From positions 1 through 41,134 of the IMG/VR virus record IMGVR_UViG_3300017917_001510: 41,134 nt of DNA. One strand, 5' to 3'. Below the pieces are notes generated by a model. That model was not told the DNA's origin. It made no database searches and worked only from the letters and a program-made list of their open reading frames with translations. Source of the stretch: a virus. The translations under genes were made by a program, and so were the position numbers. Below are positions 15,001 through 41,134 of the stretch, piece after piece (position 1 is the first letter of the stretch; every line of letters starts with the position of its first letter).

Positions 15001-15513
15001 AAAGATTCTACCGGCACAGTTACACAACCTATACCACCTACCATAGATGAGTTGACCACAGAATATTCTGGACTCCAGAATTATAAAATGATTTCAGACA
15101 ACATGATTATTAATTCAGTAGAATTTTTGCCCTTGTTTGGCAGCAAGGCACCCGAAGCTTTGCGAGCAATAATTAAAGTTATTCCTGCTGCCAATACCAC
15201 AGCCAGTGTTAGTGAAATTAAAAATCTAGTTGTGGCCAACATGGATGCATATTTTAGTCTTGACAAATGGGATTTTGGTGCCACATTCTATTTTTCAGAA
15301 TTGGCAGCCTATATCCACAGTCAAATTGGAGATATTGTTAGCTCGGTTGTATTGGTGCCACTTAACCCAGAAAAATCTTTTGGTGACTTATATGAAATTC
15401 GTTCTGCACCTAATCAGATATTTGTTAATGCGGCCACAGTCAATGATGTGCAAGTAATCACAGCCCTGACATCAACCAATATCAGAACAGCACCTGGTAG
15501 CGGAGTAATTTAA
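12049..15513 (+). CDS. 6: Baseplate wedge protein gp6-like
   Basis: This is a 1,154-residue protein. The N-terminus has the gp6/baseplate J signature: FETLRKSFVDYLRLYYPETF, SEFIALLDVMAFMGQSLAFR and NTRENYLDTAERRDSVVKLA. A LVSYTPKRNTEASGYL motif follows, and later GERAPARYYTQDR-like and NGEDYTNYPF segments (about residues 415-445). In T4, gp6 (660 residues) forms the iris-like dimer ring that holds the wedges together. This version is nearly twice as long, with inserted beta-rich segments after residue 500, as in other aquatic T4-like phages. It overlaps the giant gene by one base (TAATG), with a GGAG site before it. Confidence 0.93.
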   Translation: MAKTTRQTAIFGVEDWKRIYQTYREADFQSYDFETLRKSFVDYLRLYYPETFNDYIESSEFIALLDVMAFMGQSLAFRTDLNTRENYLDTAERRDSVVKLAQLVSYTPKRNTEASGYLKVFSVQTTENVTDYNGVNLSNITVNWADPSNADWQEQFTAIINASLLNTQRIGRPANEQTILGVDTQEYTINLVPGYIPIIPYTATIDGVNMPFEVCNSTAAGKSFIYEPAPRPNGEFNVLFRNDQLGFASANTGYFFLFKQGVLQSQDFNLPERISNRAVDINIEGVNNEDVWLYQLDNIGNIASEWTLVPNVYGAAVEQLTPGTRTIYSVTSRANDQITLNFGDGVFSTIPVGTFRNYVRASNGLTYIINPVEMQNVIVPISYVSRTGQIETITFTCGITQPVSNAQSRETIGEIKQRAPARYYTQDRMVNGEDYTNYPFTAYNSILKSKALNRASIGTSRYLDLVDGTGKYSSTNIFAADGALYEENTLPAFQFSYLTVNDINDAITNKIQPALLDAGAQQFYYNNPQYVAIRPNLAVLNLSWHESTRVVNETTGYFMNELGNPVMIGTYSSSNSKYIQVGSLVKFAAPTGYFFDKDNQLQVGVPTRADEKLTIWASPQAIYLDGTNQGLGNLPSGVGPVVLDIYVPTGAIATQVIPIFVTDFTNVFLQSIAEQIRLNRPFGLGYDSLTATWYLINSANIALNAPFSLVNAQSTEGVNNDASWFIQATTDGSNYTIVTRNLDYFFGSVIETRFFFFTGQKIYDSRTGTVISDFINILKTNSKPDNNTPLDGDTRVKIIGQPVESDGYVDDFQVLVSFQDSNSDGIPDNPDFFNDIVAPTVNPNQKLVFLEQTVDFDNLQRYLLVEAGRVNSDYPTLDAIELAKSEFAVGQVFYAWNPNNTTITNPANFDYTAGLFYQLDLALDNQTLVINPATGWIARTGRQDLYFQYRHNSPLTSRIDPGTTNIIDVYVVTLAYYTAYQNWIKDSTGTVTQPIPPTIDELTTEYSGLQNYKMISDNMIINSVEFLPLFGSKAPEALRAIIKVIPAANTTASVSEIKNLVVANMDAYFSLDKWDFGATFYFSELAAYIHSQIGDIVSSVVLVPLNPEKSFGDLYEIRSAPNQIFVNAATVNDVQVITALTSTNIRTAPGSGVI

Positions 15514-27500: not shown

Positions 27501-30188
27501 GGCAACGGTATAACTGCAACAGCTTACCCATTGATGGGCAACAGCCTAGTTAGATCTATTAAAACAACAATCAAGTATGATCGTTGTGAATACACCAGCA
27601 CAGTTAGCGAATGGCAACCTAATGTAACCTACACAGATGGTCAATTGGTTCGTTATGCTGACACAGTATGGTCAGCCATTGGAACAGTTAATACCAGTGA
27701 ATTTATAACTACCAACTGGACACTGGTAGATGCTGGCACACTAAGTGGTGCTGACAGAACCATGGGTTATTACTTGCCTACAGCTAACCAGCCTGGACTA
27801 GAATTACCTTTGTTGATTGATGGAATAAGTTATCCAGGTGTTCAAGTAACCGGACCTTTGTTTAATCAAAACACCGGATTTGATGTAGGTAACTTTGACA
27901 TCAATCCGTTTGACAATATCAGTATTGATGCCAACGGCTTACCTACATACGACTATGGAATTTTAGATACTTTCTACGCAAGTTTCTATGGAACTCCAGC
28001 AACTGGTCCGATTCCAACAGGCACAGCTCTTACAGACATCAACGTGGCCGGCGGTGCTTATGTAGACACATTTAGTAGTCATGCTCCAGAAGAATTGATT
28101 CCAGGCGCAGAATTTGACACACTTGACATGCGTATCTATACCACTCCGGGCAGTGACTGGTCTGGTGACGGACACGGATTCCCAACAGCAACACGTCGCT
28201 ATGCTTACAATCCGCTTGATCCTTTTGTAAACTTTGGCGGCTTGCTACCATACGAATTTACAGTGACCTTGTTTAATGTCTCAACTGGTGTTTTATTAGA
28301 CCCTACAGTGTATGATCCTGCATCATTGGATTGGCCAACCTATACCATTGACTTAACCAGCATTGTTGAAACAGGTGACATTCAACCCGGCGATACACTT
28401 GAAGTAGTGGTCACTGGTATCGGCGGCGGAAATCAATTATACCTAAACACATATCTTGGCAGTGAGCTCACCGACGGAAATACAATTACAGTTCCATTTA
28501 ACATTGACCAGATCAGTGAATTTGCTATCTGGAACGGCGAACAACCATTGTTCGACGGCGTAGATTATACCTATGCGGCTGGCACAGGAAATCAAACTGT
28601 AATAACTTTTGACGCAACTTACGACAATACCAATCGTATCAATCTGTGCGCATTGGGTTATGCTGCTACAGGAACAACGCACAGTTGGAGTCTTCCTGTG
28701 TTACAAACGTTTATTGCCGATGGTAATCTAACATACGACCTAGAATCTTATGCTAGCCTGCAGGGCACAAACATACCTAATGTTATTGTAGAGCGTAACG
28801 GCATTCGTGCTAGACCATACGAAGGTGGTCGTCACATCAGTGATGGTAGCACAGTAACTTACAACTTGCCTTGGTCTGGAAACTACAGTCAAGACTTGGT
28901 TGCAGACAACGACGTTGCTGTGTATGTTGACCAAACAGTGTTGGTGTTGGGCGTTGATTACTTTGTTGACCCATACACATCAAGCCCTAGAACAGTTACA
29001 TTAGCAACTGCTCCTACTGCTGGACAAGTTATTTTGATCAGCGTTCGCACAGTGGCACAATACTTTATACAAGGCAACACAATTACTTTCCGTCCTGATC
29101 AAGGCTTGAATCCTCAGATAGGCGACAGTATCAGTATTACCACATGGAATGATCCTACTGAGCAAGGAATTTACACACAGGTATTTGTAGGCCCTACTAC
29201 TGAAGGTATCACAGTCAGTGAAGGTTACGATCAAACTGTCTATGATGAAGGAACCGTAACTGGAGATCCAGGATCATTTAGTTATCAAGCAGGTGCGGTA
29301 GTTCAAACCAACAGATTTGACACAGGACAAGTTATTGTTGATCCTCAACGTTTGATGGTGACATTGGATGGCCGTTGGATCTCTTATGGAGATGGTTACA
29401 GTGTTGATGGTAGTTATATTGTAATCAATGGTCCGGTGGTTCCACCAACAACTACTTTGGTAGTAACCAGCTTTACACAAACTACCGTTAACCGTGGTAT
29501 GGCCTTCCGTATATTCCAAGACATGCGTGGTGCTCAGGCTATCTATCGTATTACTCCAGAAACAACAACAACTCTGGCGCAACCTCTGTCGGCCACAGAT
29601 GACATTATCTATGTAACCGATGCTTCAAGGTTGGGAGATCCAGAAGTTGATGTCAACATCTGGGGAGTAATTATGATCAATGGCGAAAGAATTATGTATC
29701 GTCAACGCAACACAGTCAACAACACAGTAAGCAGTTTGTTACGTGGCACTGCTGGCACAGCCGCTGATAACCATGACGCCGGTGCTGAAGTAACTGATAT
29801 GAGTAGAGGAAATCTTTTACCTATTGAGTATCAAAACTACGTTGTAAGCAATATTGATACTGATACACGACAGTATCCATTAGGTGACGGATCTACTACA
29901 CAGTTCACGGCCAGCGCAATCAACTTGGGTGTTGCTGAAGACAGCACCAATTTAGAACTGGCTGTAGAAGTTTATGTCGGCGGCACACTGCAATCATCGG
30001 GTTACACAATAATCAGTGAAGATCCAGTGATAGTATCCTTTGCTACACCACCTGCCGCAGGCAGTGCTGTGGCTATTTTGGTGCGCCGCGGAGTAGATTG
30101 GTATAATCCAGGTGTTGGAACTCCTAGTGACGGAGTGCCCTTACAAGATACTGACAATCCTATTGCAAGGTTTTTACGGGGTAACTAA
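15513..30188 (+). CDS. Giant multidomain baseplate/tail protein (4,891 residues), gp7-position
   Basis: One uninterrupted 14.7 kb reading frame directly after gp6. The N-terminus (FLPEIFQTPVNRQFLNATLD, near 11-30) matches large structural proteins I recall from aquatic and alphaproteobacterial T4-like phages. Visible parts: interleaved cupredoxin-like segments (175-355); three short NG--V-F-GD--P repeats (near 400, 638, 811); a large core rich in Trp/Tyr (about 1380-2160); a CBM5/12-like segment (1989-2030); six FG-GAP blades (2399-3252); two GSGY-type repeats (3937-3998); a second CBM-like segment (4032-4076); and about ten copies of a 45-residue beta module. The last copy precedes the C-terminus (NPIARFLRGN). 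There is no signal peptide or enzyme motif. Its place suggests gp7, with gp8 and gp10 roles possibly absorbed. Existence is certain; the precise role is inferred. Confidence 0.72.
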   Translation: MAGQVRTIDFLPEIFQTPVNRQFLNATLDQLVQEPKFKKTQGYVGRRVGPGVNADDKYVVEPTPSRNNYQLEPGVVEIDPENSSKILDTITYPGITDALKLQGGVTDNADRLYTSQYYAFDPFVDFDKFTNFSQYYWLPEGPLDVDVSATTIPLTDDITVTRENGVYMFSGRSGTNPSLTLVRGGSYTFNVAQNAKETVNYRVGNSGVSAYLIDYEANPTLTLVRGNTYVFTLNLEGIFPFYIKTIASLGNVNTYDNGVTNNGATVGTITFTVPQDAPDTLYYSCSTEFNLRGQLNIIDGTPGTGPGFWIQAEPGVSGTLPWAQNISSRDVLGVINNGEDLGTVTFNVPYSTAQSFYYSLNNIGNSNVASTVDLVTTLQFDQINNQYVTQFNSEFNGIDGITSLNGRTVVFLNQNIDPEAGGWLRTTQFDPLPRNDSFNGESGSFDTLPFDQTTAIDPANYYSVWQIQYEYDSDGNAYMVLNSVLEVDKLQKFSIAYGNEYSNTSWYKNASGFFEEIPLLTAIKNILWYQDGTDPEIFGQIRLIDQNQNATIFVESNAAPVTLYGAYINGSQLTITGSSGVIVPGMRLSGGGVTTETYILSGSGNTWTLNKSASGSPTTAEIVEILGAKNYTSPNGVVFTNGLKVTFRGSVYPESYANQTYYVEGVGTAIKLLPIGNFITPETYTQSGTVPYDSTPFDVGNFDATLNAPVEPDYLTINRASADLNAWTRSNRWFHVDVINYSAELNNVVPTVDNLQRGRRPILEFCAGTRLFDFGTEGIPPVNIIDFSATDALSNINGSLGYSTDGYTFIDGTTVIFAGDTDPEVRNQVYQVEFITPDTVPPLIAEPIINLTPVYSTPIQYDQTVVVLSGQTQQGLSYWFDGVEWKAAQQKTKTNQAPLFNVYDKDGISFSDRVKYPSTTFAGTKLFSYATPSTATETEIYSSLNDPVLGFQLVYLSLSNVGDIVFDNNLYKDTFVYAVNSVGTTVPISNGFIREYSDRTTFNREIGWQTAVTKSRARQQFQFTYDGKPLLLDVKVVTSKVLPAIQLFVNASFEESSNYTVKTTDTTTTITLLKTYPLGSVIEVDVLSDQVSKTGFYQVPVNLENNPLNANSEQFTLGTIRNHYGTICQNLINLSGPINGANNTRDLGNIVPYGQQILQQSSPLTLAGYFMRSKDYDIFAALEYNSREYIKFKSKLLDTAVNKDFGDMTIPEILDAIIADITLGRTNLNPFYWSDMLPTGSVLQTTNTTVTAITTSVFNTLQTYDFTSSNYLGLLVYIYPASDPTRPILLERGYDYVVSADSPRLTITVPLTIGDVVSICEYNNTAGNFVPNTPTKLGLYPKYKPEIFLDTNYVDPTYVIQGHDGSITVAFQDFRDEILLEFEKRIYNNLKTDDNPIPLTVDEVIPGFFRTTDYTQDEITAILGESFLSWVGWNKLDYKAQDYIANDPFTYNYSEAGSKLNTADQVTNVDEPPLLGAWRGIYRYFYDTESPNYTPWEMLGFSEEPDWWADRYGPAPYTSDNLVLWDDLANGYVADPTAPYVKPNYIRPNLQSVIPVGTEGQLLNPLESVVGQYDPTAFRKSWQVGDGGPVEYSWWTSSSYPFAVMRLLALTRPAEFFALFADRDNYRFDAELGQYLYNGRYRLDANGVPVYGNGQSRASYIDWIVDYNQQLGINSTTALTTALSNLDVRLCYRMAAFSDPRYLEIYSERSSPNSNNSSLQIPPESYNLLLYKNQPFADITYSALIVERVVDGYAVFGYSTVAPYFQVLESFSNGVLQTINAGGVEVRVPAQYTDNIAQIPYGYTFTNTTMVVDFILSYGKYLETQGLIFDDQQNGYTLDWRQMAAEFLYFSQQGWTEGTMINLNPMATTLKAYRPGAVVDSIISLTPENMVLDQNRGVLETRNLVIDREGNYFTITSTNNQTISFLQMRWTNYEHMVVLDNRSIFNDLLYDTVTGARQNRIKIAAATTIEWDGEVNAQGFILNQANVKQWQPYVKYTKGEIVKYKNQYWQAITIIQPKEKFDFNDWYKSNYDRIEQGLLPNIANKANQLANSYNVNSANLDRDNDLLSYGLIGFRPRQYMQALNLDDVTQVNLYSQFLGTKGTLLSAELFTRADLGKETGEYNIYENWAVLASTYGANANRSFYELQLNEANLQANPSTIQVIQPGQESVADQTILLNNVWRSSYKLSSTEILPTTYDTQQEMALPTAGYVSLNDVDITVFNINDPTSIEENINTVGIGTVIWVAKVNSYDWNIYRCSEKPGTIFQVQDNLNGTSIAYFTGTHNLAVGDLVIIRYFDQGVNGVYRVLAVPSISSITIAFSFANVGQTTLTGTGLAFYLEPMRVSQASDVVNLDYVKNLLPGARVWVDNDGAGHWEVIEKQDVFTVVEALLPLEYVSNSLYGTSIAQSEDHFDAFVGSPNSGTGTVQTYRRDEFTNYVPNLLLKLNATDVANFGNWVDIGDKTWGAAAAVGSNSNNGYVMILYLVPGSNDIVQTQLLVPPETSVTAFEFGHELAFSTDEHFLYVSAPGVNKIYAYGRVDVETQEVSYITDGITKNYAYSDNIQITTSEPNQLRVFVNNLELIYGTDYLINAQNVILNTTPVEGQKVLISRRQAVQLDQTVYYSLFQDATSGSGTLAQFTVTNTRGVYYVSLVNAGNNYNNGDTITIDYTQICPAGSAANNLTITVTSVSAGGHIVEFTTSGSGISNTSVFALNQSLYTATDIYSFTVVVDGVYQRPTIDYTFDNNTTEITFITNPDPGAQISVISETYWKYIGNFTVAGLETDARFGDSVSTALDGRQVVVGAPRDTVGTVPHAGSTYVIDRGAVAYQITNTDQLTYAIPGTYAEPVMVSLNGRFLTNSDQFINGEFSVTGGNVVLSSSVALTVGDTLEIETNIFQFLEKISSTDPRDESSYGYSVKLCHSDCSVYIGAPFETVELPQDGAVYRCVNQSRVYGITTSTNANPSLTPGDTVRINNFEVEVPAVGTVASLVSAINSSGIPNVVATSTPDLTFVGDGFTKIFNVGSVYSAATSYTTVVYVDNVLQTSGVNYTYNNTTKEINFVTAPASMSAITVISGRMTVSVKNSQAAQSSNKLQVLPGLSTGSTAFYDLGFITYPEVQKITSPNPTDYAHFGYSVDIDTNSVNLVVGAPNGTVIQPVTFDQGQTTFDSYSTTFNAPIFNSGVVYTYNYLPAATASIDNPGSFVFGQQIYTTNLLPGDSFGASVNYTSNRLMVGAPGTDIGVSQGNYGAAIVYDDPTNRPAWTIIHAQQPAVDTQLIDGVYAYDKLLSKVTSYFDFINPLQGKILGAARRNIDYIGAVDPAQYNVGVIHNNGSSWASEHLGEIWWDTDTVRFIDPNQDDIVYASRRWAQTFPGSRVDIYQWTASNVPPVSYTGTGTPLSTVTYTVNTAVNQQGIVETTYYFWVRGINTIDTGAGKTLSPVGIASYIESPKTAGIPYLAALNASTVAIYNANSLVSAQDTILHIGYDRQAQGGDNNIHQEFQFVADGRPDSFLNATLYRKLQDSFCGADESGAVVPDPTLSPAEKYGVQFRPRQSMFADRYKALQNYLIRANTVLAQYPIAETRSFNLLNSSEPIPTSNSGQYNFVVATLDELGYQNLQIVPIGYRYLVLSDSSQEGRWTIYQVAEGTIPGQPVLNLVRIQNYDTKLYWNYIDWYDPGYNSSKLPLVQVPNYSSLISVSLIDVPVGGSAKVDSNAQGKFEIYLRTETGWTRVGLQDGTIEFKQELWNYALGNFGFDAEIFDGQYFDQEPVIETRKIIQAINEELFVDELAIERNSSLILMFNFIYSEFTTPDWLIKTSLVDVNHNIRALLPYQMYMQDNQTFVLDYIKEVKPYHVQIREFNLIYSGQDTYGGNLTDFDVPAYWDTTLTVPQYISPILLPYTHATTSVQSDLSDTPYNAEIWLAEPWKQWYNNYLLSVLSVDVINPGSGYLTPPNVTVTGDCTTPAVLTATINSAGQVIAITVVNPGAGYSVTPTITIDTSGNGITATAYPLMGNSLVRSIKTTIKYDRCEYTSTVSEWQPNVTYTDGQLVRYADTVWSAIGTVNTSEFITTNWTLVDAGTLSGADRTMGYYLPTANQPGLELPLLIDGISYPGVQVTGPLFNQNTGFDVGNFDINPFDNISIDANGLPTYDYGILDTFYASFYGTPATGPIPTGTALTDINVAGGAYVDTFSSHAPEELIPGAEFDTLDMRIYTTPGSDWSGDGHGFPTATRRYAYNPLDPFVNFGGLLPYEFTVTLFNVSTGVLLDPTVYDPASLDWPTYTIDLTSIVETGDIQPGDTLEVVVTGIGGGNQLYLNTYLGSELTDGNTITVPFNIDQISEFAIWNGEQPLFDGVDYTYAAGTGNQTVITFDATYDNTNRINLCALGYAATGTTHSWSLPVLQTFIADGNLTYDLESYASLQGTNIPNVIVERNGIRARPYEGGRHISDGSTVTYNLPWSGNYSQDLVADNDVAVYVDQTVLVLGVDYFVDPYTSSPRTVTLATAPTAGQVILISVRTVAQYFIQGNTITFRPDQGLNPQIGDSISITTWNDPTEQGIYTQVFVGPTTEGITVSEGYDQTVYDEGTVTGDPGSFSYQAGAVVQTNRFDTGQVIVDPQRLMVTLDGRWISYGDGYSVDGSYIVINGPVVPPTTTLVVTSFTQTTVNRGMAFRIFQDMRGAQAIYRITPETTTTLAQPLSATDDIIYVTDASRLGDPEVDVNIWGVIMINGERIMYRQRNTVNNTVSSLLRGTAGTAADNHDAGAEVTDMSRGNLLPIEYQNYVVSNIDTDTRQYPLGDGSTTQFTASAINLGVAEDSTNLELAVEVYVGGTLQSSGYTIISEDPVIVSFATPPAAGSAVAILVRRGVDWYNPGVGTPSDGVPLQDTDNPIARFLRGN
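16036..16580 (+). other. Interleaved cupredoxin-like segments in the giant protein
   Basis: Two first-half motifs, NPSLTLVRGGSYTFNV (about residue 175) and NPTLTLVRGNTYVFTLN (216), are followed by two second-half motifs, TFTVPQDAPDTLYYSCS (about 273-289) and TVTFNVPYSTAQSFYYS (about 343-357). The inner pair makes a complete domain and the outer pair appears to flank it, as if one domain is inserted in another. The usual copper ligands are mostly lost: Cys remains in YYSC, but the expected His and Met positions read STEFNL. A structural role is therefore more likely than electron transfer. Confidence 0.55.
22704..25268 (+). other. Six FG-GAP (integrin-type) repeats in the giant protein
   Basis: Six segments follow the pattern (F/Y)G-S followed by a (V/I)GAP or VSAP turn and a short Tyr-rich strand. 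They lie near residues 2399 (VGSPNSGTGTVQTY), 2505 (FGHELAFSTDEHFLYVSAPG), 2784 (FGDSV with VVVGAPRD), 2910 (YGYSV with VYIGAPFE), 3128 (FGYSV with LVVGAPNG) and 3216 (FGASV with LMVGAPGT). Such repeats build beta-propellers in integrin alpha chains and bacterial adhesins. The 45-residue beta modules lie between several blades, so the propeller would be decorated or interrupted. Confidence 0.65.
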
Positions 30189-32299: not shown

Positions 32300-33298
32300 A
32301 TGACATATTCAGCAGGTAACGTAATTTTAGCAGCAGACTACAATAATTTTGTAGCAAACACTTCATCCAACTGTATCAATCAGGTCTGGTCAACTGGATC
32401 CACTGATAGTGGGTGGGGACAAACCGCAATAGGAAACGTTTCTGCTGCTGCCACAGTCACAGCCACACAGTGGGCTTCGTTGGTTAATAACTTAGGAACA
32501 ATGGGTAGCCAAACTAACGTGGCTATCACTTCAAGAACTGCTCCTGTAGCAGGAAACACAATTGCAATTTTTGCCAATGTTCAAACAGATATTAATAATG
32601 TTACACTTTATCGTGGCAACGCAGCTGCTAGTGGAACACGCTATGCTACATGGACTGGTAACGTGGCTAAAACAGCCGCAACATCAACCAATGCTGCAGG
32701 TTGGAACATCACATTTACCAATACCATAACATTCCCTAGTGCCGATCAAGCACGTTATTTCTTTAATGCTGGTGGTTTGGTTCGTATTGACATGAGTAAG
32801 ACAAGTACTGGCACTGACAAAGATCCAGACTGGAATACATTTGTTGGCACAGTCGGCACACTCTACATGAGTGGTCGTGTTAACGGTGCGGCACAAACAA
32901 TCGCTGGCACAAGCTATACCGGCTTTACTCGTGTAGGCGGATCAGGAACACCAAGTCCAAACTTAACAACCACTGGTTGGTATACATTAAGTGCTGGCGC
33001 AGCCGCAACAACAATGTGGCAATTGGCCTCTACAGTAAGTCCATATTCAGGCGACTACATTCAGATTACTGCCGCTAAAAATGCTGGCTCAACTACACTG
33101 ACATTGGTATCAACCTGGCACGATAACGGTTATACATTGCCGGGCGAAAACAACGCAATTTCAGGTGGAACAGACACAACAAGTCCATACAGTTCTTTTG
33201 GAACAGCACCTGCGGTTGTAGTAAGTTATCTTCCACCAAGCACAACTTATCTAACCAACACCTGGGGCACACCAACTATTGCTGCTTCTGTAGCTTAA
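32300..33298 (+). CDS. Fibre-like structural protein (332 residues)
   Basis: The start is MTYSAGNVILAADYNNFVAN, a leader seen at the N-terminus of phage fibre and appendage proteins. The rest is rich in Thr/Ala/Gly/Ser with few charges, and includes FPSADQARYFFNAGGLVRIDMS (near 148-169) and a GWYTLSAGAAATTMWQ segment. An AGGAA ribosome site lies six bases before the ATG. It is the last gene of the late operon and precedes a hairpin terminator, so it is probably a virion surface or receptor-binding component. The exact function is not recognised. Confidence 0.6.
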   Translation: MTYSAGNVILAADYNNFVANTSSNCINQVWSTGSTDSGWGQTAIGNVSAAATVTATQWASLVNNLGTMGSQTNVAITSRTAPVAGNTIAIFANVQTDINNVTLYRGNAAASGTRYATWTGNVAKTAATSTNAAGWNITFTNTITFPSADQARYFFNAGGLVRIDMSKTSTGTDKDPDWNTFVGTVGTLYMSGRVNGAAQTIAGTSYTGFTRVGGSGTPSPNLTTTGWYTLSAGAAATTMWQLASTVSPYSGDYIQITAAKNAGSTTLTLVSTWHDNGYTLPGENNAISGGTDTTSPYSSFGTAPAVVVSYLPPSTTYLTNTWGTPTIAASVA

Positions 33299-33380: not shown

Positions 33381-33686
33381 ATGGATACTGAAAACTTAAT
33401 CGCACACAGTCGTGCTCGTTTTGAACACGCGGCCGCTAAACGACTTCTTAGAGAAAAATACCAAGGCAAACTAACTTTTGCCTATCGTGGTGGTATGTTT
33501 AACGCAGGTCCAGAATTGATCAATACCTTAAACACTTGTCCGTGGGACGAAGCAGTTATTTTAGATTTATATGAAAATCCTGTTCGAGTAGCACCTGTAG
33601 AACTTAAACACTTGGCCGAACAACGTTGGCAAGAACAAATGACAGCTTGGCTAGCAGAATACGAAGCTATATCAAAAAACAGATGA
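33381..33686 (+). CDS. Unknown 101-residue protein
   Basis: A basic N-terminal helix (HSRARFEHAAAKRLLREKY) precedes AYRGGMFNAGPELINTL and CPWDEAVILDLYENPV. The C-terminal helix contains EQRWQEQMTAWLAEYE. I recall similar small proteins in aquatic phage genomes but no known function. It is the first gene of the operon and its stop codon overlaps the next ATG by four bases. There is no ribosome site before the ATG; the TATAAT box ends six bases upstream. Confidence 0.72.
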   Translation: MDTENLIAHSRARFEHAAAKRLLREKYQGKLTFAYRGGMFNAGPELINTLNTCPWDEAVILDLYENPVRVAPVELKHLAEQRWQEQMTAWLAEYEAISKNR

Positions 33687-34480
33687 CCACCGGCGCTGTA
33701 ATTTTTGCCTACAACAATGAACTCATTGACTATGTTGCTATGGCCGCATGGACTGCTGAAAATATTCGTAGACATCTTGACATTCCTGTGGCACTTGTAA
33801 CTGATCGTCCCACTGAATTAAAATTTGAACAAGTAATCATTGCTGATGCAGGCGGAGCAAATGGACGTTGGTTTGGAGATTACAATACCAATGTTGCCTG
33901 GCACAATCGGTCAAGAGTCAATGCTTATGAACTTAGTCCTTGGAATCAAACTTTGGTCTTAGACGCTGATTATGTTGTGGCCAGCAACCAGTTACGAACT
34001 GTGTTAGATTCTAAACAAGATTTTCTAGCGCATCGGTGGGCCTATGACGTTACTGGGTTACGAGACTTTGAAGATTTAAACTACTTTGGTGCATATGATA
34101 TGCCCATGTGGTGGGCCACTGTAATGATGTTCCGTCGCAGTGAACAAGCTAGATTGATATTTGAAACCATGGCCATGATTAGAAACAACTGGGATCACTA
34201 CAGAAATATCTACAGTAATAGATTACATGCCTATCGCAATGATCATGCTCTAACTATAGCACTAGGAGTAGTCAACGGACACACATTAAATCACCCTGGC
34301 ATTACCTGGGACTTGGCTAGCCTAACACCCGATCATCAACTAACACAGTTAGATAAGGATCATTACAGAGTAGACTTCCTGACGACAGATCAAAAGCCTC
34401 GATGGATTGAGCTACACAATCAAGACTTTCATGCCATGGGAAAGAAAACATTAGGAGACATAGTTGCCAATCCTTGCTGA
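33683..34480 (+). CDS. Glycosyltransferase-like protein (GT-A type candidate)
   Basis: This is a 265-residue protein. The start TGAVIFAYNNELIDYVAM resembles the nucleotide-sugar-binding N-terminus of GT-A transferases. LVLDADYVV at residues 91-99 supplies a DxD motif (D94, D96) for metal-bound UDP- or GDP-sugar. A conserved HNQDFHAMGKK segment is near the C-terminus. The start is chosen at the ATG that overlaps the previous stop (ATGA); a longer frame from 33626 would lie inside the upstream gene. It has no membrane segment, so it probably acts in the cytoplasm, on virion proteins, DNA or a host glycan. The acceptor is unknown. Confidence 0.7.
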   Translation: MTTGAVIFAYNNELIDYVAMAAWTAENIRRHLDIPVALVTDRPTELKFEQVIIADAGGANGRWFGDYNTNVAWHNRSRVNAYELSPWNQTLVLDADYVVASNQLRTVLDSKQDFLAHRWAYDVTGLRDFEDLNYFGAYDMPMWWATVMMFRRSEQARLIFETMAMIRNNWDHYRNIYSNRLHAYRNDHALTIALGVVNGHTLNHPGITWDLASLTPDHQLTQLDKDHYRVDFLTTDQKPRWIELHNQDFHAMGKKTLGDIVANPC

Positions 34481-35189
34481 ACGTGGATATCTAATACCGG
34501 CTATAGGCCAGCAGTATGAGCAGTGTGCCAAACAGTTAACTGACAGTATACGACGTTTTCATCCTGAAGCCAACATCACTGTCTTGACTGAATCTATGTT
34601 ACCGTATGGACGACAAGGCGGATTTGCCGATGACTGGCAAGTGTTTGCGGCCAGTCCTTACAGACAAACTATTAAATTAGAAGCTGATATGATCTGTGCT
34701 GGCCCAATTGATCATTGGTGGACTTTGTTTGAGCGTAGAGATGTTGTAATCAGTCGCGGTGCTAGAACATTTTATGACCGTCCGGCCAAGTCTAGACGTT
34801 ACCGCAAAATATTTGATGAAAACAATTTGCCTGACGTTTACAATGCTGTTACCTATTGGCGTGTAAGTCAAACTGCTCGAGAGTTTTTTATCTTGGTGCG
34901 TAACATATTTGAAAACTGGGCCGAATATCGTCGATTGTTAAAGTTCCCAGACGACGAACCTACTACCGATGTTGTATATGCCATGGCTGCAGTAATCATG
35001 GGCGAAGAAACAGTTACACTACCTTCTGGGCTAGGTCCAACTATTGTGCATATGAAACGCCATATCAATCGATTACAAACAGAAAACTGGACCAAAGAAT
35101 TGATCTGGGAAAAGAATCCTTTTAGAATCAACACAGTGGCACAATGGGGCTTGGTTCATTATCATGTAAAGGATTGGGTGTATGAGTGA
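34464..35189 (+). CDS. Glycosyltransferase-like protein (GT-A type candidate)
   Basis: This is a 241-residue protein with a GT-A-like layout: YEQCAKQLTDSIRRFHPEAN (near 18-37), then YRQTIKLEADMICAGPID, where ExD (E73, D75) stands in the DxD position. The later segment FDENNLPDVYNAVTYWRVSQ suits an acceptor-binding region. The start codon is TTG at 34464, supported by an AGGAG ribosome site at 34453-34457, six bases before it. The gene overlaps the previous one by 17 bases and the next one by eight. The sugar and acceptor are unknown. Confidence 0.65.
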   Translation: MPILAERGYLIPAIGQQYEQCAKQLTDSIRRFHPEANITVLTESMLPYGRQGGFADDWQVFAASPYRQTIKLEADMICAGPIDHWWTLFERRDVVISRGARTFYDRPAKSRRYRKIFDENNLPDVYNAVTYWRVSQTAREFFILVRNIFENWAEYRRLLKFPDDEPTTDVVYAMAAVIMGEETVTLPSGLGPTIVHMKRHINRLQTENWTKELIWEKNPFRINTVAQWGLVHYHVKDWVYE

Positions 35190-35535
35190 TCAGCCAATGA
35201 CCGAAGAAGAATTCTGGGCCATACTACAGGCACCGATTGAAACCAAGCCTATATTTTATCGTTTGTATTATAATGATGATGGCACGCCTATTTGTTACAG
35301 CATGGAGCAATTACCTCATAATTATATAGAGCTTACCCTGGAACAATATCATCTAAGATCAGACCATGTTCGAGTAATCAACGGACAATTAGTTTATGTC
35401 AACCCAGCGTCTTACACTAAAAAATTAAGGCCTGATACTGAAGGAACTGCCTGCGATCCTCGCGATATTTGTGTTGTAGTAGAACAGTACAAACCTAACA
35501 TTAAATGGAGATTAAAAACCAATGAAGCAAGTTGA
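35182..35535 (+). CDS. Unknown 117-residue protein
   Basis: The protein contains TEEEFWAILQAPIETKPIFY, then RLYYNDDGTPICYSMEQLP and VRVINGQLVYVNP, followed by ACDPRDICVVVEQYKPNIKW. It is small, acidic and without membrane segments, and I do not recognise a catalytic motif. It lies between glycosyltransferase-like genes, overlapping the one before by eight bases and the one after by 14, which suggests it works with them. Similar small proteins occur in aquatic T4-like phages as far as I recall, without assigned function. Confidence 0.7.
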   Translation: MSDQPMTEEEFWAILQAPIETKPIFYRLYYNDDGTPICYSMEQLPHNYIELTLEQYHLRSDHVRVINGQLVYVNPASYTKKLRPDTEGTACDPRDICVVVEQYKPNIKWRLKTNEAS

Positions 35536-36448
35536 TGTAGCAGATTTAGATTGCATATATCTCAGCTACGACGAGCCTGAGCGAGAGGAATTTTGGGTTA
35601 AAATTAAAAACATTATTCCTTGGGCACGTCGTGTAGACGGAGTCAAAGGTTCAGATGCCGCACACAAAGCCGCCGCAGAAGCCAGCGAAACAGAACGTTT
35701 TGTTTTGATCGACGGAGATAACATTCCCTTTCCAGATTTTTTCAATCAGACACTGGTATTCAAAGATCAAGAATGGGAATCTGCGGTGTATCGTTGGCGA
35801 GCAAAAAATTCAGTCAATGGATTAATGTATGGCAATGGTGGTTTAAGTTGCTGGACTAAAGAGTTTGTTCGTAACATGCAAACACATGAGAACACAGATG
35901 GCTCTGCAGAGAATGATGTAGAGTTTTGCTTTTACCCTAACTACTGGGCCATGCATGATTGCTTCTCAACCACATTTCCTAATCAAAGTGAATTCCATGC
36001 ATGGCGAGCAGGCTTCCGTGAAGGTGTCAAGATGTGCCTTAACAAAGGTGCTCGACCAGAGATTAACGAGTTTAAAGATCAGGTCCATCAACGTAACCTA
36101 GATCACCTGACTATTTGGCACAATATTGGACGTGATGTTGACCATGGTATATGGGCCATTGCCGGTAGCCGCATGGGCACTTACATGACCATGTTGACCA
36201 ACTGGGATTACAAACAAGTTCAAGACTTTGATGCCTTGGCTGACCTGTGGAAAACTGTTGAAACTTCAGATCCAGAAATCTTAGCTGGTCGTGTAGCCGA
36301 AGATTTAGAACAACAATTAGACTTGCCTATTACCATGTATGGCCCAGAAGAAAGTAAGTTTTTTAAATTTCACTATCGTAGTAATTGGAACAACATGGGT
36401 GTCATGGTTAGAGAAATGGATGTAATACGTCGTCAGGAAGGTTGGTAA
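35522..36448 (+). CDS. Glycosyltransferase-like protein with DGD motif
   Basis: This is a 308-residue protein. DCIYLSYDEPEREEFW (10-25) is followed by WARRVDGVKGSDAAHKAAAE (34-53), a helix typical of a family of phage GT-A-like proteins. FVLIDGDNIPF (60-70) provides the DxD motif (D64, D66). A NGLMYGNGGLSCWTKEFV segment follows and may bind the acceptor or the sugar. A GGAG ribosome site lies 11 bases upstream of the ATG. The end overlaps the next ATG by one base. The sugar and acceptor are unknown. Confidence 0.66.
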   Translation: MKQVDVADLDCIYLSYDEPEREEFWVKIKNIIPWARRVDGVKGSDAAHKAAAEASETERFVLIDGDNIPFPDFFNQTLVFKDQEWESAVYRWRAKNSVNGLMYGNGGLSCWTKEFVRNMQTHENTDGSAENDVEFCFYPNYWAMHDCFSTTFPNQSEFHAWRAGFREGVKMCLNKGARPEINEFKDQVHQRNLDHLTIWHNIGRDVDHGIWAIAGSRMGTYMTMLTNWDYKQVQDFDALADLWKTVETSDPEILAGRVAEDLEQQLDLPITMYGPEESKFFKFHYRSNWNNMGVMVREMDVIRRQEGW

Positions 36449-37002
36449 TGATTATAGCATTTTATCCTGGCGGTGGCGGCAATCGTTTTTACAAATGGCT
36501 ACAGGGTCAGACTGCCTTTGAACCGAACCAAGGATATGATCATACCAATCCGCGACAGTCTTTTGTTAATAGATATCCAAGAAAAGAAACAAAAGCACAA
36601 CTGGTTCAAGAGCCTGTTGTGTTTACGCATTGTGTTAATTTTGATTTTATAACAGAATGTTGGCCTGACCAGGATAAAATTTATTTTATTTTCACAGACA
36701 AAAATCAAAGTTTAAAGCGACAGTGGGCATTGTTTCAAAATAAAAACAGTGCCAATCGACATCCAGTGGGTGGGCCATTTAGTGTTATCACATGGCACAA
36801 TGATTATTACACAGAATACCCATGGGATACTAAAACAGGCACTGTGGTTGATTCAAATACCTTCCCAGATTTTATAAAAATGATTCAACAAGAGTTGGAC
36901 AGCATTTCGTGTCCAGAATTTGATTTTGCGCAACGCATGTTCGAACAACACGGACCCACAGCACCTATTTTAGATCTTTACAATCAGCACTATGTCAAAT
37001 AA
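36448..37002 (+). CDS. Unknown 184-residue protein with glycine-rich loop
   Basis: The N-terminus IIAFYPGGGGNRFYKWLQG has a strand followed by a glycine-rich loop and a helix, as in nucleotide- or PAPS-binding proteins, but it lacks the GK(S/T) of a true P-loop. DKIYFIFTDKNQSLKRQWAL (near 75-94) could be a second phosphate-contacting segment, as in sulfotransferases; this is speculative. Start choice: the ATG at 36448, which overlaps the previous stop (TAATG) and has AGGAAGG six bases upstream, rather than the TTG at 36442. It is surrounded by glycosyltransferase and radical SAM genes. Confidence 0.6.
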   Translation: MIIAFYPGGGGNRFYKWLQGQTAFEPNQGYDHTNPRQSFVNRYPRKETKAQLVQEPVVFTHCVNFDFITECWPDQDKIYFIFTDKNQSLKRQWALFQNKNSANRHPVGGPFSVITWHNDYYTEYPWDTKTGTVVDSNTFPDFIKMIQQELDSISCPEFDFAQRMFEQHGPTAPILDLYNQHYVK

Positions 37003-38389
37003 GGGTGACCAAAGTAACTTTTTAAGCTCAGCTGAAGAAATGAAAAATCAGTTGGGCACTGCCATGTGCCTGGCCAAGTGGAAACAGGTTAGCCTACACT
37101 TGCCCACAGGACTCAACAACAGTTGCTATCATCCACCCTTACACGCTATACCTGCTGAACTTCTGGCCAACAATCCTTCAGCACTACATAACACACCACA
37201 CAAAAAAGAACAACGCAAAATAATGTTGCGTCAAGAACGCCCAGAAGAATGCAGTTACTGCTGGGCCATGGAAGATCAAGGCAAGTTGTCAGATCGTCAC
37301 TATCGGTCAGGTGAGCCATGGGCGGCCAAAGACTTTGATACAATTATGAATTCAACCGGAGAAGAAGATGTCATCCCTAGCTATGTGGAAGTTAATTTTA
37401 ATCATGCTTGTAATCTCAAATGTAGTTATTGTAGTCCTCAGTTTAGTTCAAGTTGGCAACAGGAAGTTGAGCAATACGGGGGATATCCTACAAGCACTAT
37501 TCATAACGATCCTAATCATTTTGTTGGTCGCAATCGCCCTATCCCCGTTCGTGATCATAACCCTTATGTAGATGCTTTCTGGTCCTGGTGGCCCGACTTG
37601 TATCCTGAACTAGAGCACTTCCGCATGACCGGTGGTGAACCACTATTAGATAAGAATACATATAGAGTTTTTGACTATGTGTTGGCCAACCCTAGTCCTA
37701 AACTGCATCTTAATGTAACAAGTAACTTTAGTGTAGATGAAAAGTCGTGGAACAAGTATTTAGGTTATGTTAAGCAGTTGTGTGAGGGTGAAAAGATTGA
37801 ACACTTCATGCAGTATGTTAGCCTGGATGCCTGGAGCACACAGGCCGAGTATATCAGACACGGTCTAGACTTTAGACTGTTATGGGATCGTGTAAATCAA
37901 TTCTTGACAGAGATTCCAGGACGCAATTCAATAACCTTTATTGTTACCATGAATAATCTAAGTGTAACAACCTTGGATAGTTTATTTGCTGGCATCTTGG
38001 GACTTAGACATATCTACAGTAACACATACCAGCGTGTATGGTTTGATACTCCGGTGCTACGTCAACCAGTGTGGCAACGACTGGACATCCTACCAGAAAG
38101 CTATGCTGACAAATTAGAACACTTGTGGGCATGGATGCTTAAACAACAAGAAACACCAGACACACGCTTCAAAGGATTCAAGGACTATGAAATAGCTCGA
38201 CTAGATCGTGACATAGCCTGGATGCGAGCTGGACAACAACAGCCTGCTGAAATAACCAATCAACGCAAGGCTGATTTTTATCGTTTCTTTAGTGAGTATG
38301 ATCGTAGACACAACACAGACTTTTTATCTACGTTTCCAGAAATGAGCACTTGGTGGTCAGAATGTGAGTATTATGCTAAACAATCGTAA
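36992..38389 (+). CDS. Radical SAM protein with N-terminal auxiliary Fe-S cysteines
   Basis: This is a 465-residue protein. The radical SAM cluster motif is CNLKCSYC (C140, C144, C147), followed by SPQFSSSW, and GGEP is at 214-217. Before the radical domain lie C26, C45, C87 and C90, which could bind an auxiliary iron-sulfur cluster in the twitch-like manner. The spacing of these four cysteines is the same as in the enzyme at 39427. Other matches with that paralogue are NPYVDAFWSWW and QAEYIRHGLDF. The ATG overlaps the previous gene by 11 bases with a poor ribosome site; an in-frame ATG at 37040 is possible but would remove conserved flanking sequence only. Substrate unknown. Confidence 0.9.
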   Translation: MSNKGDQSNFLSSAEEMKNQLGTAMCLAKWKQVSLHLPTGLNNSCYHPPLHAIPAELLANNPSALHNTPHKKEQRKIMLRQERPEECSYCWAMEDQGKLSDRHYRSGEPWAAKDFDTIMNSTGEEDVIPSYVEVNFNHACNLKCSYCSPQFSSSWQQEVEQYGGYPTSTIHNDPNHFVGRNRPIPVRDHNPYVDAFWSWWPDLYPELEHFRMTGGEPLLDKNTYRVFDYVLANPSPKLHLNVTSNFSVDEKSWNKYLGYVKQLCEGEKIEHFMQYVSLDAWSTQAEYIRHGLDFRLLWDRVNQFLTEIPGRNSITFIVTMNNLSVTTLDSLFAGILGLRHIYSNTYQRVWFDTPVLRQPVWQRLDILPESYADKLEHLWAWMLKQQETPDTRFKGFKDYEIARLDRDIAWMRAGQQQPAEITNQRKADFYRFFSEYDRRHNTDFLSTFPEMSTWWSECEYYAKQS

Positions 38390-39446
38390 AGTAATCGCCG
38401 ACACATTTTGTGAAGTGTATAATCTAATCAAGCCCATGGTTGATGAAGAGTTTTGGGATTTTAGTCAGATACAAGATCGTATAGAACCTGGTGCTGTATA
38501 TCTTATAAGCCGAAAAGAGTTTTACAATCACACTGAACGCATTAAACAAATTGCTGACCAGAATATTGCTACTATCATAATGAGTAACCCGCACGAAGGT
38601 TCGTGGACCATACTAGGACAATGCACCAGGCTGGGCATTGTTAATTTGGTCAACGAGGGCAAAATATTAATAATCGGCGGAGGTGACATGGATGACTCAT
38701 ACCCATGCCTGCGCTATGATAGTTTCTTGCCAAAAGTTTTAGACTACGAAGAAAATATCAAGGCCGCCGAAGACTATCGCTTGGGCTGGACTGACACCCG
38801 CCCTTATAAATTTTTGTTTTTAAATGGTCGAGGACGTCCACACAGGCAAAAACTAATTGCTAGACTAGAGCCCTTGCTGGAGCAATCAATCTGGACCAAC
38901 CTAGATAGCGCAGCTGGACCTATCAAGATACTGGGTCCAAAATATGAATTTGATTTTTACAATGACAAGACCGCAGTAGCTGATTCTGGTTATGTCAAAT
39001 ACGAATTGTTTAACAATCAGTGGGGAGAAATATATCTACGTGCTGAACCCTACTTGGACACTTACTTTAGTTTGGTCAGTGAAACAGTGTTTGAATATCC
39101 CTACAGTTTTCGCACAGAAAAAATGGCCAAGCCCTTGGCAATAGGACATCCATTTGTTGTGGCCAGCAATCAAGGCTACTATAGAGATCTACGCAACTTG
39201 GGATTTCAAACCTTTGATCAGTTGATTGATGAATCATTTGACTTGATCGAAGACAATGATGCTCGCTTAGAACGCCTGGCTTCGGAAGTAGAATGGCTAT
39301 GCCGCCAGGATCTTGCTAAATTCTCACACGAAGCCTACACAATATGTAAATACAATCAGCAACGTCTTGCCGAGTTAAGAATTCAAATACGACAAGAATT
39401 TCCCGATCGATTCCAAAATTTTATCAATGAACGACTTAGAGTTTAA
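38373..39446 (+). CDS. Glycosyltransferase-like protein (GT-B/GT10-like candidate)
   Basis: The protein has about 357 residues. Near residues 235-268 it carries LVSETVFEYPYSFRTEKMAK followed by PLAIGHPFVVASNQG. This E-x(9)-FRTEK-(x)-KP-(x)-GHPF pattern matches the donor-binding region of phage glycosyltransferases related to GT10 fucosyltransferases, as I recall it. The N-terminal half (YLISRKEFYNHTERI, then IIMSNPHEGSW) would be the acceptor domain. Start choice: ATG at 38373; a GTG at 38364 would add three residues, and neither has a strong ribosome site. It overlaps the radical SAM genes on both sides, so the three are translated together. Confidence 0.68.
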   Translation: MLNNRKVIADTFCEVYNLIKPMVDEEFWDFSQIQDRIEPGAVYLISRKEFYNHTERIKQIADQNIATIIMSNPHEGSWTILGQCTRLGIVNLVNEGKILIIGGGDMDDSYPCLRYDSFLPKVLDYEENIKAAEDYRLGWTDTRPYKFLFLNGRGRPHRQKLIARLEPLLEQSIWTNLDSAAGPIKILGPKYEFDFYNDKTAVADSGYVKYELFNNQWGEIYLRAEPYLDTYFSLVSETVFEYPYSFRTEKMAKPLAIGHPFVVASNQGYYRDLRNLGFQTFDQLIDESFDLIEDNDARLERLASEVEWLCRQDLAKFSHEAYTICKYNQQRLAELRIQIRQEFPDRFQNFINERLRV

Positions 39447-40761
39447 ACAACAGGTCCTGGACCCTAAAGGCACCTTCTGCGCTGCCAAATGGTATAATGC
39501 TACCATATGGTTAGGCTCTGGCCAAACAACCAGTTGTCATCACCCTCCGGCACATGCAATCGATCTGGAGGCTATTCGAACTAATCCTCGAGCTATACAC
39601 AATACCAGTCAAAAGAAACAAGACCGTTACGAAATGCAGACCGGAGAACGTCCACCTGGTTGCGAATACTGCTGGAAGATAGAAGACATGGGTCGCGACG
39701 CTATAAGCGACCGTGTATATAAGAGTAAAATTTATCCTATAGAGGCCCTAGATGAAGCATACAACACAGACCCCACAGAAGACGTCAATCTTCGCACACT
39801 TGAAATCGCATTCGATCGCACTTGCCAATTCGCTTGTAGCTATTGTAACCCTGCTTTCAGTAGCACATGGGTTAAAGACATACGATCCAACGGTCCCTAT
39901 GAGCGCCTGGTGTCTGATGGGCGTGGTCACTTTACTCATACTCACGATAGCAGTCAACTATACCGGTTTGGTGAAGTTAATCCCTATGTTGAAGCGTTCT
40001 TCAAGTGGTGGGAAACAGACTTACATAGAACACTCCAAGAACTAAGAATTACCGGCGGCGAACCGCTTATGTCAGGCGAAACCTGGAAGCTGTTAGATTG
40101 GTTCAAAAACAACAAAGGCAAGAGTTCTACACGCCTGGCTATCAACAGTAACTTAGGTGTAGATGTTGATGTGGATCGCCTGTTGGACAGCATCGAAGGA
40201 CTTGAAGTAGATGTTTACACCAGTAATGAAGCTGTAGGCGCACAAGCAGAGTATATACGTGATGGTCTAGACTATGAGCACTGGTTTGCCAATGTAAGAA
40301 AACTATTGGATAGCGATCGCATTCGTGCTGTGCATTGTATGTGCACCATTAATGCCTTGTGTTTAGATACACTGCCTAGACTGTTGGGCCTACTAAATCG
40401 ACTTAAACAAGTGTATGGCAAGCAACGTGTGAGCTTTACGTTAAATATATTACGCTTCCCTAGTTTCCAAAGTCCTCTGGTCTTGCCGTATGAACAAAGA
40501 ACACAGTATCAATATGAGTTAGAAGCATGGTTAGAAGAAGAATGCAGAGACCCTGCGTCATTGTTACACGAACACGAACGCAATCACACACAACGCTTGA
40601 TTGATTACTTAGATGTAGTAAAGACTCCGCACTCAGAAGCATTTGAACTAGACAAGTTGCGTAATGACTTTAAACAGTTTTACACACAATACGATCAACG
40701 TCGTGGCAAGAACTTTACAGCCGCATTTCCTAGACTAGCAGAATGGTACCAAACACTATGA
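39427..40761 (+). CDS. Radical SAM protein with N-terminal auxiliary Fe-S cysteines
   Basis: This is a 444-residue protein. The radical SAM motif is CQFACSYC (C133, C137, C140), followed by NPAFSSTW, and GGEP is at 210-213. Auxiliary-cluster cysteines C18, C37, C79 and C82 precede the radical domain. NPYVEAFFKWW and QAEYIRDGLDY align with the enzyme at 36992, so the two are paralogues. The ATG lies inside the end of the glycosyltransferase gene (20-base overlap) and the stop overlaps the next ATG by four bases. Its role is probably modification of a peptide, sugar or nucleotide in the same pathway as the neighbouring transferases; the substrate is unknown. Confidence 0.9.
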   Translation: MNDLEFKQQVLDPKGTFCAAKWYNATIWLGSGQTTSCHHPPAHAIDLEAIRTNPRAIHNTSQKKQDRYEMQTGERPPGCEYCWKIEDMGRDAISDRVYKSKIYPIEALDEAYNTDPTEDVNLRTLEIAFDRTCQFACSYCNPAFSSTWVKDIRSNGPYERLVSDGRGHFTHTHDSSQLYRFGEVNPYVEAFFKWWETDLHRTLQELRITGGEPLMSGETWKLLDWFKNNKGKSSTRLAINSNLGVDVDVDRLLDSIEGLEVDVYTSNEAVGAQAEYIRDGLDYEHWFANVRKLLDSDRIRAVHCMCTINALCLDTLPRLLGLLNRLKQVYGKQRVSFTLNILRFPSFQSPLVLPYEQRTQYQYELEAWLEEECRDPASLLHEHERNHTQRLIDYLDVVKTPHSEAFELDKLRNDFKQFYTQYDQRRGKNFTAAFPRLAEWYQTL

Positions 40762-41134
40762 TAACAGAATTACAACAAAAATATCACTGTCATGTTGTTG
40801 ACCTAGATGCTTGGCATGATCAACCTGTATTCAAAAGAAAATTATGGTTGAAAAAACAATTAATGTCAGTGTATAAATCCTTTTATCAAGAAAATGAAAG
40901 AGTAGTTTTTACCTTAACAAAAGGAGATGTTTACGAAAATCAAACCAGCGCAGCAGGCCTGCTGGCGACTGACTTGTATAAACAGCTAAATGAAATTGAT
41001 ATCAGTAACTATTTTGTAATACTGTTGACCACCGACAGCACAGTGCTAGAAGCCTGCTCCTGGCTACAAGAAAACGTCAGTCAAGATCCAGTGCCTATTA
41101 CATGTCAACTTTTATCCACAGAAACAAATCAAAA
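40758..41134 (+). CDS. Unknown protein, partial (N-terminal 125 residues)
   Basis: The frame begins MITELQQKYHCHVVDLDAWH and continues KRKLWLKKQLMSVYKSFYQE, then ERVVFTLTKGDVYENQTSAA and SNYFVILLTTDSTVLEACSW; it is still open at the right edge of the window. Its start overlaps the radical SAM stop codon by four bases (ATGA), so it is co-translated with that enzyme. The alternating strands and helices suggest a Rossmann-like fold, and I have a vague recollection of similar proteins next to radical SAM genes in aquatic phages. No catalytic motif is recognised. Confidence 0.72.
   Translation, partial: MITELQQKYHCHVVDLDAWHDQPVFKRKLWLKKQLMSVYKSFYQENERVVFTLTKGDVYENQTSAAGLLATDLYKQLNEIDISNYFVILLTTDSTVLEACSWLQENVSQDPVPITCQLLSTETNQ

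Follow-up and report, generated by a model that had tools for sequence, protein, structure and literature searches.

Do radical S-adenosylmethionine (SAM) enzymes and sugar transferases that are encoded side by side in a phage genome belong to one pathway and, if so, what would that pathway modify? The question is raised by the IMG/VR virus record IMGVR_UViG_3300017917_001510, 41,134 bases in length (the window, to which the positions below refer unless another locus is named), in which two related radical SAM genes, rSAM1 and rSAM2, flank a transferase gene. The window is a 41 kb fragment of a jumbo-phage genome that ends inside a third gene of the same kind, and the rSAM pair is the start of a nearly fixed row of five related rSAM genes that is found in a widespread, uncultured group of jumbo phages. 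The features at the centre of the question are as follows.

36992..38389, + strand: rSAM1, 465 amino acids (aa); NF033640 309.7 bits, E 3e-92, model positions 3-397 of 398
38373..39446 (GTG alternative start 38364), + strand: variable glycosyltransferase, GT-B-like by predicted fold
39427..40761, + strand: rSAM2, 444 aa; NF033640 297.2 bits, E 2e-88, model positions 3-398 of 398
40743..41134, + strand: 5' end of rSAM3, N-terminal extension; gene cut by the contig end

The five-member rSAM array

The preliminary description of the window had reported an identical cysteine pattern in the two complete enzymes, and the pattern is indeed present in both open reading frames (ORFs): C-x18-C-x41-C-x2-C, followed by CxxxCxxC and GGEP. 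The residues concerned in rSAM1 are C26, C45, C87 and C90 in the N-terminal part, C140, C144 and C147 in the core, and GGEP at residues 214-217; in the DNA, the N-terminal twitch-type cysteine domain is at approximately 37067-37261, CxxxCxxC at 37409-37432, and GGEP at 37631-37642. The N-terminal cysteines of rSAM2 are C18, C37, C79 and C82, with CxxxCxxC from about residue 133, so that the gap between the last N-terminal cysteine and CxxxCxxC is 50 residues, where that of rSAM1 is 49. Both proteins match the NCBIfam model NF033640 (N_Twi_rSAM, "twitch domain-containing radical SAM protein"; model length 398, curated cut-off 170 bits) over its full length, and the shared cysteines are therefore those of the family's N-terminal twitch-type domain, an extra iron-sulphur domain; chance likeness of the two patterns is ruled out by this common membership. 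The Pfam model PF04055 also matches the rSAM proteins of the window, but below its cut-off. From the families and their context, each rSAM would be predicted to bind two [4Fe-4S] clusters and to cleave SAM.

Scanning IMG/VR with rSAM1 identified 80 loci, at 67-84% identity, and a group 3 query identified 80 further loci. The rSAM genes form five orthologous groups, both by tree and by profile grouping. All five groups are present in 95/98 non-redundant loci that have at least 8 genes after rSAM1, in the order 1-2-3-4-5 or 1-2-3-5-4, small insertions being allowed. What had been described as a pair is thus two complete genes of a five-member array, the third of which is begun at 40743, where the ORF has 28-44% identity to the N-terminus of rSAM3 proteins of 555-573 aa (L018, L025, L041, L053, L056). 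The four N-terminal cysteines, CxxxCxxC and GGEP are kept in 678/678 proteins of the five groups, with a favoured spacing that is group-specific, and the seven cysteines and GGEP are intact in 155/155 rSAM1 and 140/140 rSAM2 phage orthologues. Compared with near relatives, rSAM1 and rSAM2 have nonsynonymous divergence (dN) of 0.13-0.19 and synonymous divergence (dS) of 1.4-3, with dS near saturation; the array rSAMs are under purifying selection. A fixed order of five paralogues amid surroundings that turn over argues strongly that they work in one pathway.

The genes of the block overlap throughout, which is consistent with a single translational unit. rSAM1 shares 11 bp with the gene ahead of it. 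The transferase gene overlaps rSAM1 by 17 bp if it starts at ATG, or by 26 bp if at GTG, and rSAM2 by 20 bp, so that it does overlap both rSAM genes as first described; the ORF that follows rSAM2 overlaps it by 19 bp. The attribution of these genes to a phage also stands. The 1154 aa protein at 12049 has 34-37% identity to baseplate wedge proteins of jumbo phages such as CBB, Munch, Atu_ph07 and Phosso, and gp30342 has 54-56% identity to proteins of Phosso and Atu_ph07. One ORF of 4891 codons, of tail/baseplate type, occupies 15513-30188, upstream of the island that carries the rSAM genes; Phosso likewise has a giant gene for a virion structural protein at the equivalent place.

Transferases, cargo and cellular relatives

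The protein encoded between rSAM1 and rSAM2 has no match in Pfam or PHROG and no significant match in a PDB profile search. Its AlphaFold (AF2) model has a predicted local distance difference test score (pLDDT) of 89.6; the top Foldseek matches of the model are EXT1/2, SdgB and TarM, and the best 50 matches in VIA are all GT-B enzymes, with Z of 10.2-12.3 over approximately 240-290 residues. On this modelled fold, it is predicted to be a GT-B-like glycosyltransferase (GT), not a GT-A enzyme. The GT-B gene is present in 81/134 rSAM1-rSAM2 intervals, while rSAM1 and rSAM2 abut in 30/134. The gene between the pair is replaceable cargo, and the interleaving of rSAM and transferase genes is not supported in the form originally stated: an obligatory arrangement of that kind is ruled out by the abutting pairs.

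Upstream of rSAM1 are the following features.

32300..33298, + strand: tail-distal structural-like protein (gp32300), variable, adjoining the 5' end of the island; candidate target in the virion; 30-76% identity among relatives
33683..34480, + strand: GT-b (GT33686), putative GT-A glycosyltransferase; invariant DAD; homologous to GT-c (hhalign 99.2%)
34464..35189, + strand: GT-c (GT34464), putative GT-A glycosyltransferase; EADM motif; phrog_1903 E 1.7e-11, function not assigned there
35182..35535, + strand: small conserved protein within the operon, function unassigned; 87 relatives close to it in length
35522..36448, + strand: GT-a (GT35522), putative GT-A glycosyltransferase; conserved, with invariant DGD
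36448..37002, + strand: small P-loop-like protein, sulfotransferase-like by eye only; homologue fused to the rSAM1 N-terminus in several relatives

Upstream sequence is sufficient in 86 non-redundant loci, of which 84 have GT35522, all 86 have GT34464, 84 have GT33686, and 84 have gp32300. The co-occurrence of radical and sugar-transfer genes, for which a check had been suggested, is therefore seen in this phage lineage, together with much cargo for glycan chemistry. GT-a is directly 5' of rSAM1 in 36/84 phage loci. In the deposited phage genomes searched there is no close homologue of rSAM1, the GT-B gene, or GT-a. The P-loop-like gene and rSAM1 are fused as ORFs of 644-649 aa in L019, L022, L024-L026, L032, L038, and L053; neither the P-loop-like protein of the window nor the N-terminal portion of the fused L019 protein has a Pfam match.

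Cargo genes with Pfam support encode a carbamoyltransferase (34 loci, by clustering), an NAD-dependent epimerase, a DegT aminotransferase, a GHMP kinase, a cytidylyltransferase, an AMP-binding enzyme, a B12-type radical SAM protein, a SAM synthetase, and a PNP_UDP_1 protein. The SAM synthetase gene is near the array at L080:20116-21198. The PNP_UDP_1 gene (L081:18724-19706), which by eye resembles a methylthioadenosine/S-adenosylhomocysteine nucleosidase, is also near the array and adjoins a cytidylyltransferase gene. These two would supply SAM and remove 5'-deoxyadenosine, fitting active radical chemistry. Amidinotransferase-like genes were also noted near rSAM genes (L020:20296-21321, L229:7248-8249; compare the amidinotransferase of phage CP220, below); the L020 protein has no Pfam match and is 28% identical to a cyanophage protein annotated as a glycine amidinotransferase.

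When four bacterial phyla were searched with rSAM1 at E<=1e-30, homologues were found in 93/369 Bdellovibrionota genomes and in none from the Pseudomonadota (0/398), Bacteroidota (0/395), or Cyanobacteria (0/292), a total of 0/1085. That the search works is indicated by the phage contigs binned in two metagenome-assembled genomes (MAGs), which were matched by the same query. Loci L082-L086, considered as cellular homologues, were judged to be phage contigs in marine MAG bins and were left uncounted. Four have the same tail or GT genes, while L086 shares only rSAM and cargo genes with the phage loci; the MAGs are assigned to Rickettsiales, Betaproteobacteria, Pelagibacter, Verrucomicrobia, and Flavobacterium.

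A separate scan of genomes with group 3 identified a Bacteriovoracaceae chromosome (L087, UBA6144) on which relatives of the five phage groups are all together in a single block, with rSAM1 at 49% and rSAM2 at 51-52%. In this block the order is shuffled and members are duplicated; it adjoins genes that read as obg and rpmA, and no GT was seen within it. In the maximum-likelihood tree, phage rSAM1 is one clade within the Bdellovibrionota, sister to L087/L199 (100/100) and inside a 99/94 clade, and for rSAM2 the phage sequences are again sister to those of L087/L199, the polarity of the tree assuming a root between groups 1 and 2. The simplest reading is that the phage array genes were acquired from a Bdellovibrionota-like bacterium, which may by extension suggest that Bdellovibrionota are the hosts of the phage.

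Some of the Bdellovibrionota homologues are in polysaccharide loci, with genes for GT2, a PMT_2-like protein, an ABC-2 exporter, a carbamoyltransferase, a GDP-mannose dehydratase, and an FAD amine-oxidase-like protein. A GT35522 homologue is directly 5' of the rSAM1 homologue in L193. There were also observations on other neighbours. At L231:7726-16040, a Bdellovibrionota rSAM1 homologue (49%) is near three genes that are flagellin-like by eye. A protein of approximately 310 aa, which has an SDxDxTV-like motif and by eye resembles a nucleotidyltransferase, recurs beside bacterial rSAM1 homologues (L198:9210, L199:3350, L200:2120, L201:11938, L202:4858, L205:111, L207:1339, L208:2, L210:8319), and two of these proteins that were tested have no Pfam match. 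In Paenibacillus (L088:7977-9269), a lone N_Twi rSAM is in a cluster that by eye resembles acyl-carrier/ketosynthase biosynthesis.

Possible products of the operon

There appears to be about an even chance that what the window shows is the opening segment of an operon for glycan tailoring, placed in a jumbo-phage host-recognition region. The rSAMs would cleave SAM to the 5'-deoxyadenosyl radical, each carrying out a different hydrogen-atom abstraction on a sugar or glycan intermediate, with oxidation, epimerisation, dehydration, and C-C/C-X formation as candidate chemistries. The three fixed GTs would build a common core, the ends of which may be varied by the swappable GTs, the carbamoyltransferase, the epimerases and others, and the product would decorate either the host surface, for superinfection exclusion, or the virion. 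Glycan tailoring is supported by the sugar-modifying cargo, the fixed GTs, the GT-B fold, and the bacterial polysaccharide loci, as well as by the GT8 gene of Vibrio phage K566 and the rSAM-GT clusters of phage CP220 and the pelagimyophages, which are described below. The family membership and intact motifs, the five-group order, the dN and dS values and the genes for SAM supply and 5'-deoxyadenosine removal also count in its favour. So does the co-occurrence of GT-a and rSAM1 in Bdellovibrionota: GT-a homologues are present in 21 genomes, 18/21 of which have rSAM1, as against 93/369 overall (nominal Fisher p 3e-9, a value that ignores phylogeny), and the two genes adjoin in L193. A more specific proposal, that the array is a five-step radical pathway taken as a block from Bdellovibrionota, performing successive reactions on one glycan or glycoprotein to make an undescribed surface structure, and that the phage clade infects predatory Bdellovibrio-like bacteria, seems distinctly doubtful; no report of giant phages infecting such bacteria was found in the literature.

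Several observations weigh against glycan tailoring. The GT-A labels of the upstream genes are putative and rest on weak matches, so that the original account of neighbouring glycosyltransferases stands, by predicted fold, for the intervening gene and has a weaker basis for those upstream. For GT-a, 11/30 homologues weakly match Glyco_tranf_2_3 (best E 0.0015), and hhalign against GT2 gives 1.2%; a PDB profile search with GT-c gives mostly weak glycogenin matches (E 0.2-1.4), and those with GT-a and GT-b give no significant match. There was likewise no match when GT-b and GT-c were aligned by hhalign with the GT8 of K566, a single sequence. Homologues commonly standing alone, which the preliminary description would have taken as contrary evidence, are found in part. 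Genomes G001-G004 (316-344 kb) each have several N_Twi proteins above the cut-off, inside the array and dispersed, and the dispersed genes of array-bearing jumbo phages are mostly solitary, with no GT neighbours; Bdellovibrionota homologues L234-L236 and L238 are alone among housekeeping genes, also without transferases. These solitary phage and bacterial members rule out GTs as constant companions of the N_Twi family as a whole. The AF2 model of rSAM1 (mean pLDDT 93.6) has a radical SAM fold, the nearest structures to which include peptide maturases (SkfB, Z 14.2; SuiB, 13.5) beside sugar and nucleotide enzymes (BlsE and DesII, both 13.3); with Z values so nearly tied, the fold does not separate a peptide from a sugar substrate. 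The literature on the N_Twi rSAM family yielded no member with a known substrate, product or function. The glycan link is strong in the phage operon and partial in bacteria. As a separate observation, at L215-L230 many extra N_Twi genes of these jumbo-phage genomes are alone beside replication and other genes, resembling repeated single-gene insertions.

The array might instead modify the side chains or backbone of a virion protein, in the manner of maturases of ribosomally synthesised and post-translationally modified peptides (RiPPs), after which the GTs would glycosylate the protein, giving a tail fibre that is hardened or altered in recognition. This would agree with the presence of the RiPP maturases SkfB and SuiB and the sulfatase maturase anSME among the closest folds by Z, and with the position of the island, which directly follows the tail genes in the phage loci examined, the 32300-33298 protein being an example of a target. 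It would agree also with the PapB/DynA-like SPASM rSAMs at the syntenic position in Phosso and with the flagellin-like neighbours, by eye, of the L231 homologue. No small precursor gene, however, was seen to be kept with the homologues, the phage-conserved 33381 and 35182 proteins being unmatched in the bacterial loci (ORFs under 60-90 aa were not systematically covered). Much of the cargo is for sugar-nucleotide chemistry, and several bacterial homologues are in polysaccharide-export loci that have no structural proteins. Modification of a virion protein is accordingly possible, though on the unlikely side. That co-location reflects no more than a shared insertion hot spot, the rSAMs acting on a small molecule or RNA (a cofactor, lipid or tRNA) in host takeover unrelated to the GTs, would account for the solitary N_Twi genes dispersed through these phage genomes, for the solitary bacterial homologues, and for the island being a cargo hot spot. 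This is improbable given that the five-gene order is fixed in spite of the turnover of the surrounding cargo, that three GT genes stay attached, and that GT-a and rSAM1 co-occur, and can adjoin, in bacteria.

A modified DNA base was among the targets first suggested, and this suggestion is weakened. In such hypermodification a radical enzyme would act on the base or base-sugar, followed by glycosylation, as protection against restriction. Phage GTs that modify DNA are known, and T4 beta-GT and the GT of phage HY126 are among the GT-B structure matches. Yet PF00303 (thymidylate synthase/hydroxymethylase) is present in 0/6 phage genomes of 316-347 kb, with the control positive in 9/14, an absence that counts against the known hydroxymethyl-pyrimidine route and not against every route. 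The bacterial homologues are in polysaccharide or housekeeping loci, and the GT-B gene is missing from many phage loci, all of which makes DNA as the target very improbable.

Comparison with known systems

The array rSAMs match the NF033640 family at full length, the N-terminal cysteine domain being followed by the radical SAM core. The model is a generic one, and groups 1 and 2 make up a deep subgroup, whose members were seen in this analysis only in these phages and in Bdellovibrionota. In their fold, and in having a radical SAM core with a cysteine-rich auxiliary-cluster domain, they resemble the SPASM/twitch enzymes (the anSME, SkfB, SuiB and BtrN class). The auxiliary domain of SPASM/twitch enzymes comes after the radical SAM core, whereas that of the array rSAMs comes before it.

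Clusters of similar composition are present in other phages. The Campylobacter phages CP220 and CPt10 have blocks with five rSAM genes and an amidinotransferase, CP220 also having two genes with nucleotide-diphospho-sugar transferase domains (PMC2853527; FN667788 CPT_0080-0089). Their genes overlap, and the cluster was called an interchangeable module, for which the authors proposed a boosting of host metabolism (PMC2853527). The CP220 rSAMs reach at best 26 bits against the N_Twi profile, and not over its full length, and their gene order is not conserved with that of the five-member array, which they resemble in gene composition only. A tblastn search with the amidinotransferase identified marine and cyanophage relatives and none in CP220, so that for this gene the parallel with CP220 is by function only. 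The host-recognition cluster of pelagimyophages is hypervariable, is located after the tail genes, and has several glycosyltransferases with radical SAM cassettes, for which modification of the host O-chain has been suggested (PMC7029224). Pelagimyophages infect SAR11, and their rSAMs are described as added cassettes, in contrast to the fixed array here; this likeness is drawn from the published description. A T4-like genome of marine origin, 183 kb in size, carries 12 genes for radical SAM enzymes (PMC5332604).

N_Twi rSAM genes are also found in the Vibrio phages K566, K567 and D479 (255-258 kb), and in K566 two of them flank a GT8 gene. The N_Twi proteins of these phages are 22-24% identical to those of the array, are in other surroundings, and do not form a five-group array. 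Radical SAM genes also follow the gp30342 homologue in Sinorhizobium phage Phosso, but these are of the SPASM type (PapB/DynA-like). Pfam identifies four radical SAM genes at this syntenic position (L213, 183082-207639), some resembling peptide maturases (PapB/DynA), and there is a cupin as well. The cultured phages Vibrio K566/K567 and Phosso are entry points to related arrangements, Phosso being a tractable model.

Few other enzymes can carry out the reactions of radical SAM enzymes, and members of the N_Twi family are common in aquatic phages. The array provides a short list of proteins to reconstitute, and the restriction of the cellular homologues to one of the four phyla sampled makes it possible to test whether this abundant jumbo-phage clade infects Bdellovibrionota and to ask which radical chemistry the Bdellovibrionota themselves perform. 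Nothing was found in the literature on radical SAM enzymes together with jumbo phages or with virion glycosylation. Phage clusters of rSAM and GT genes are of a known, uncharacterised kind; no precedent was found for the fixed array of five N_Twi paralogues or for its phylum-restricted cellular source, and both appear to be new.

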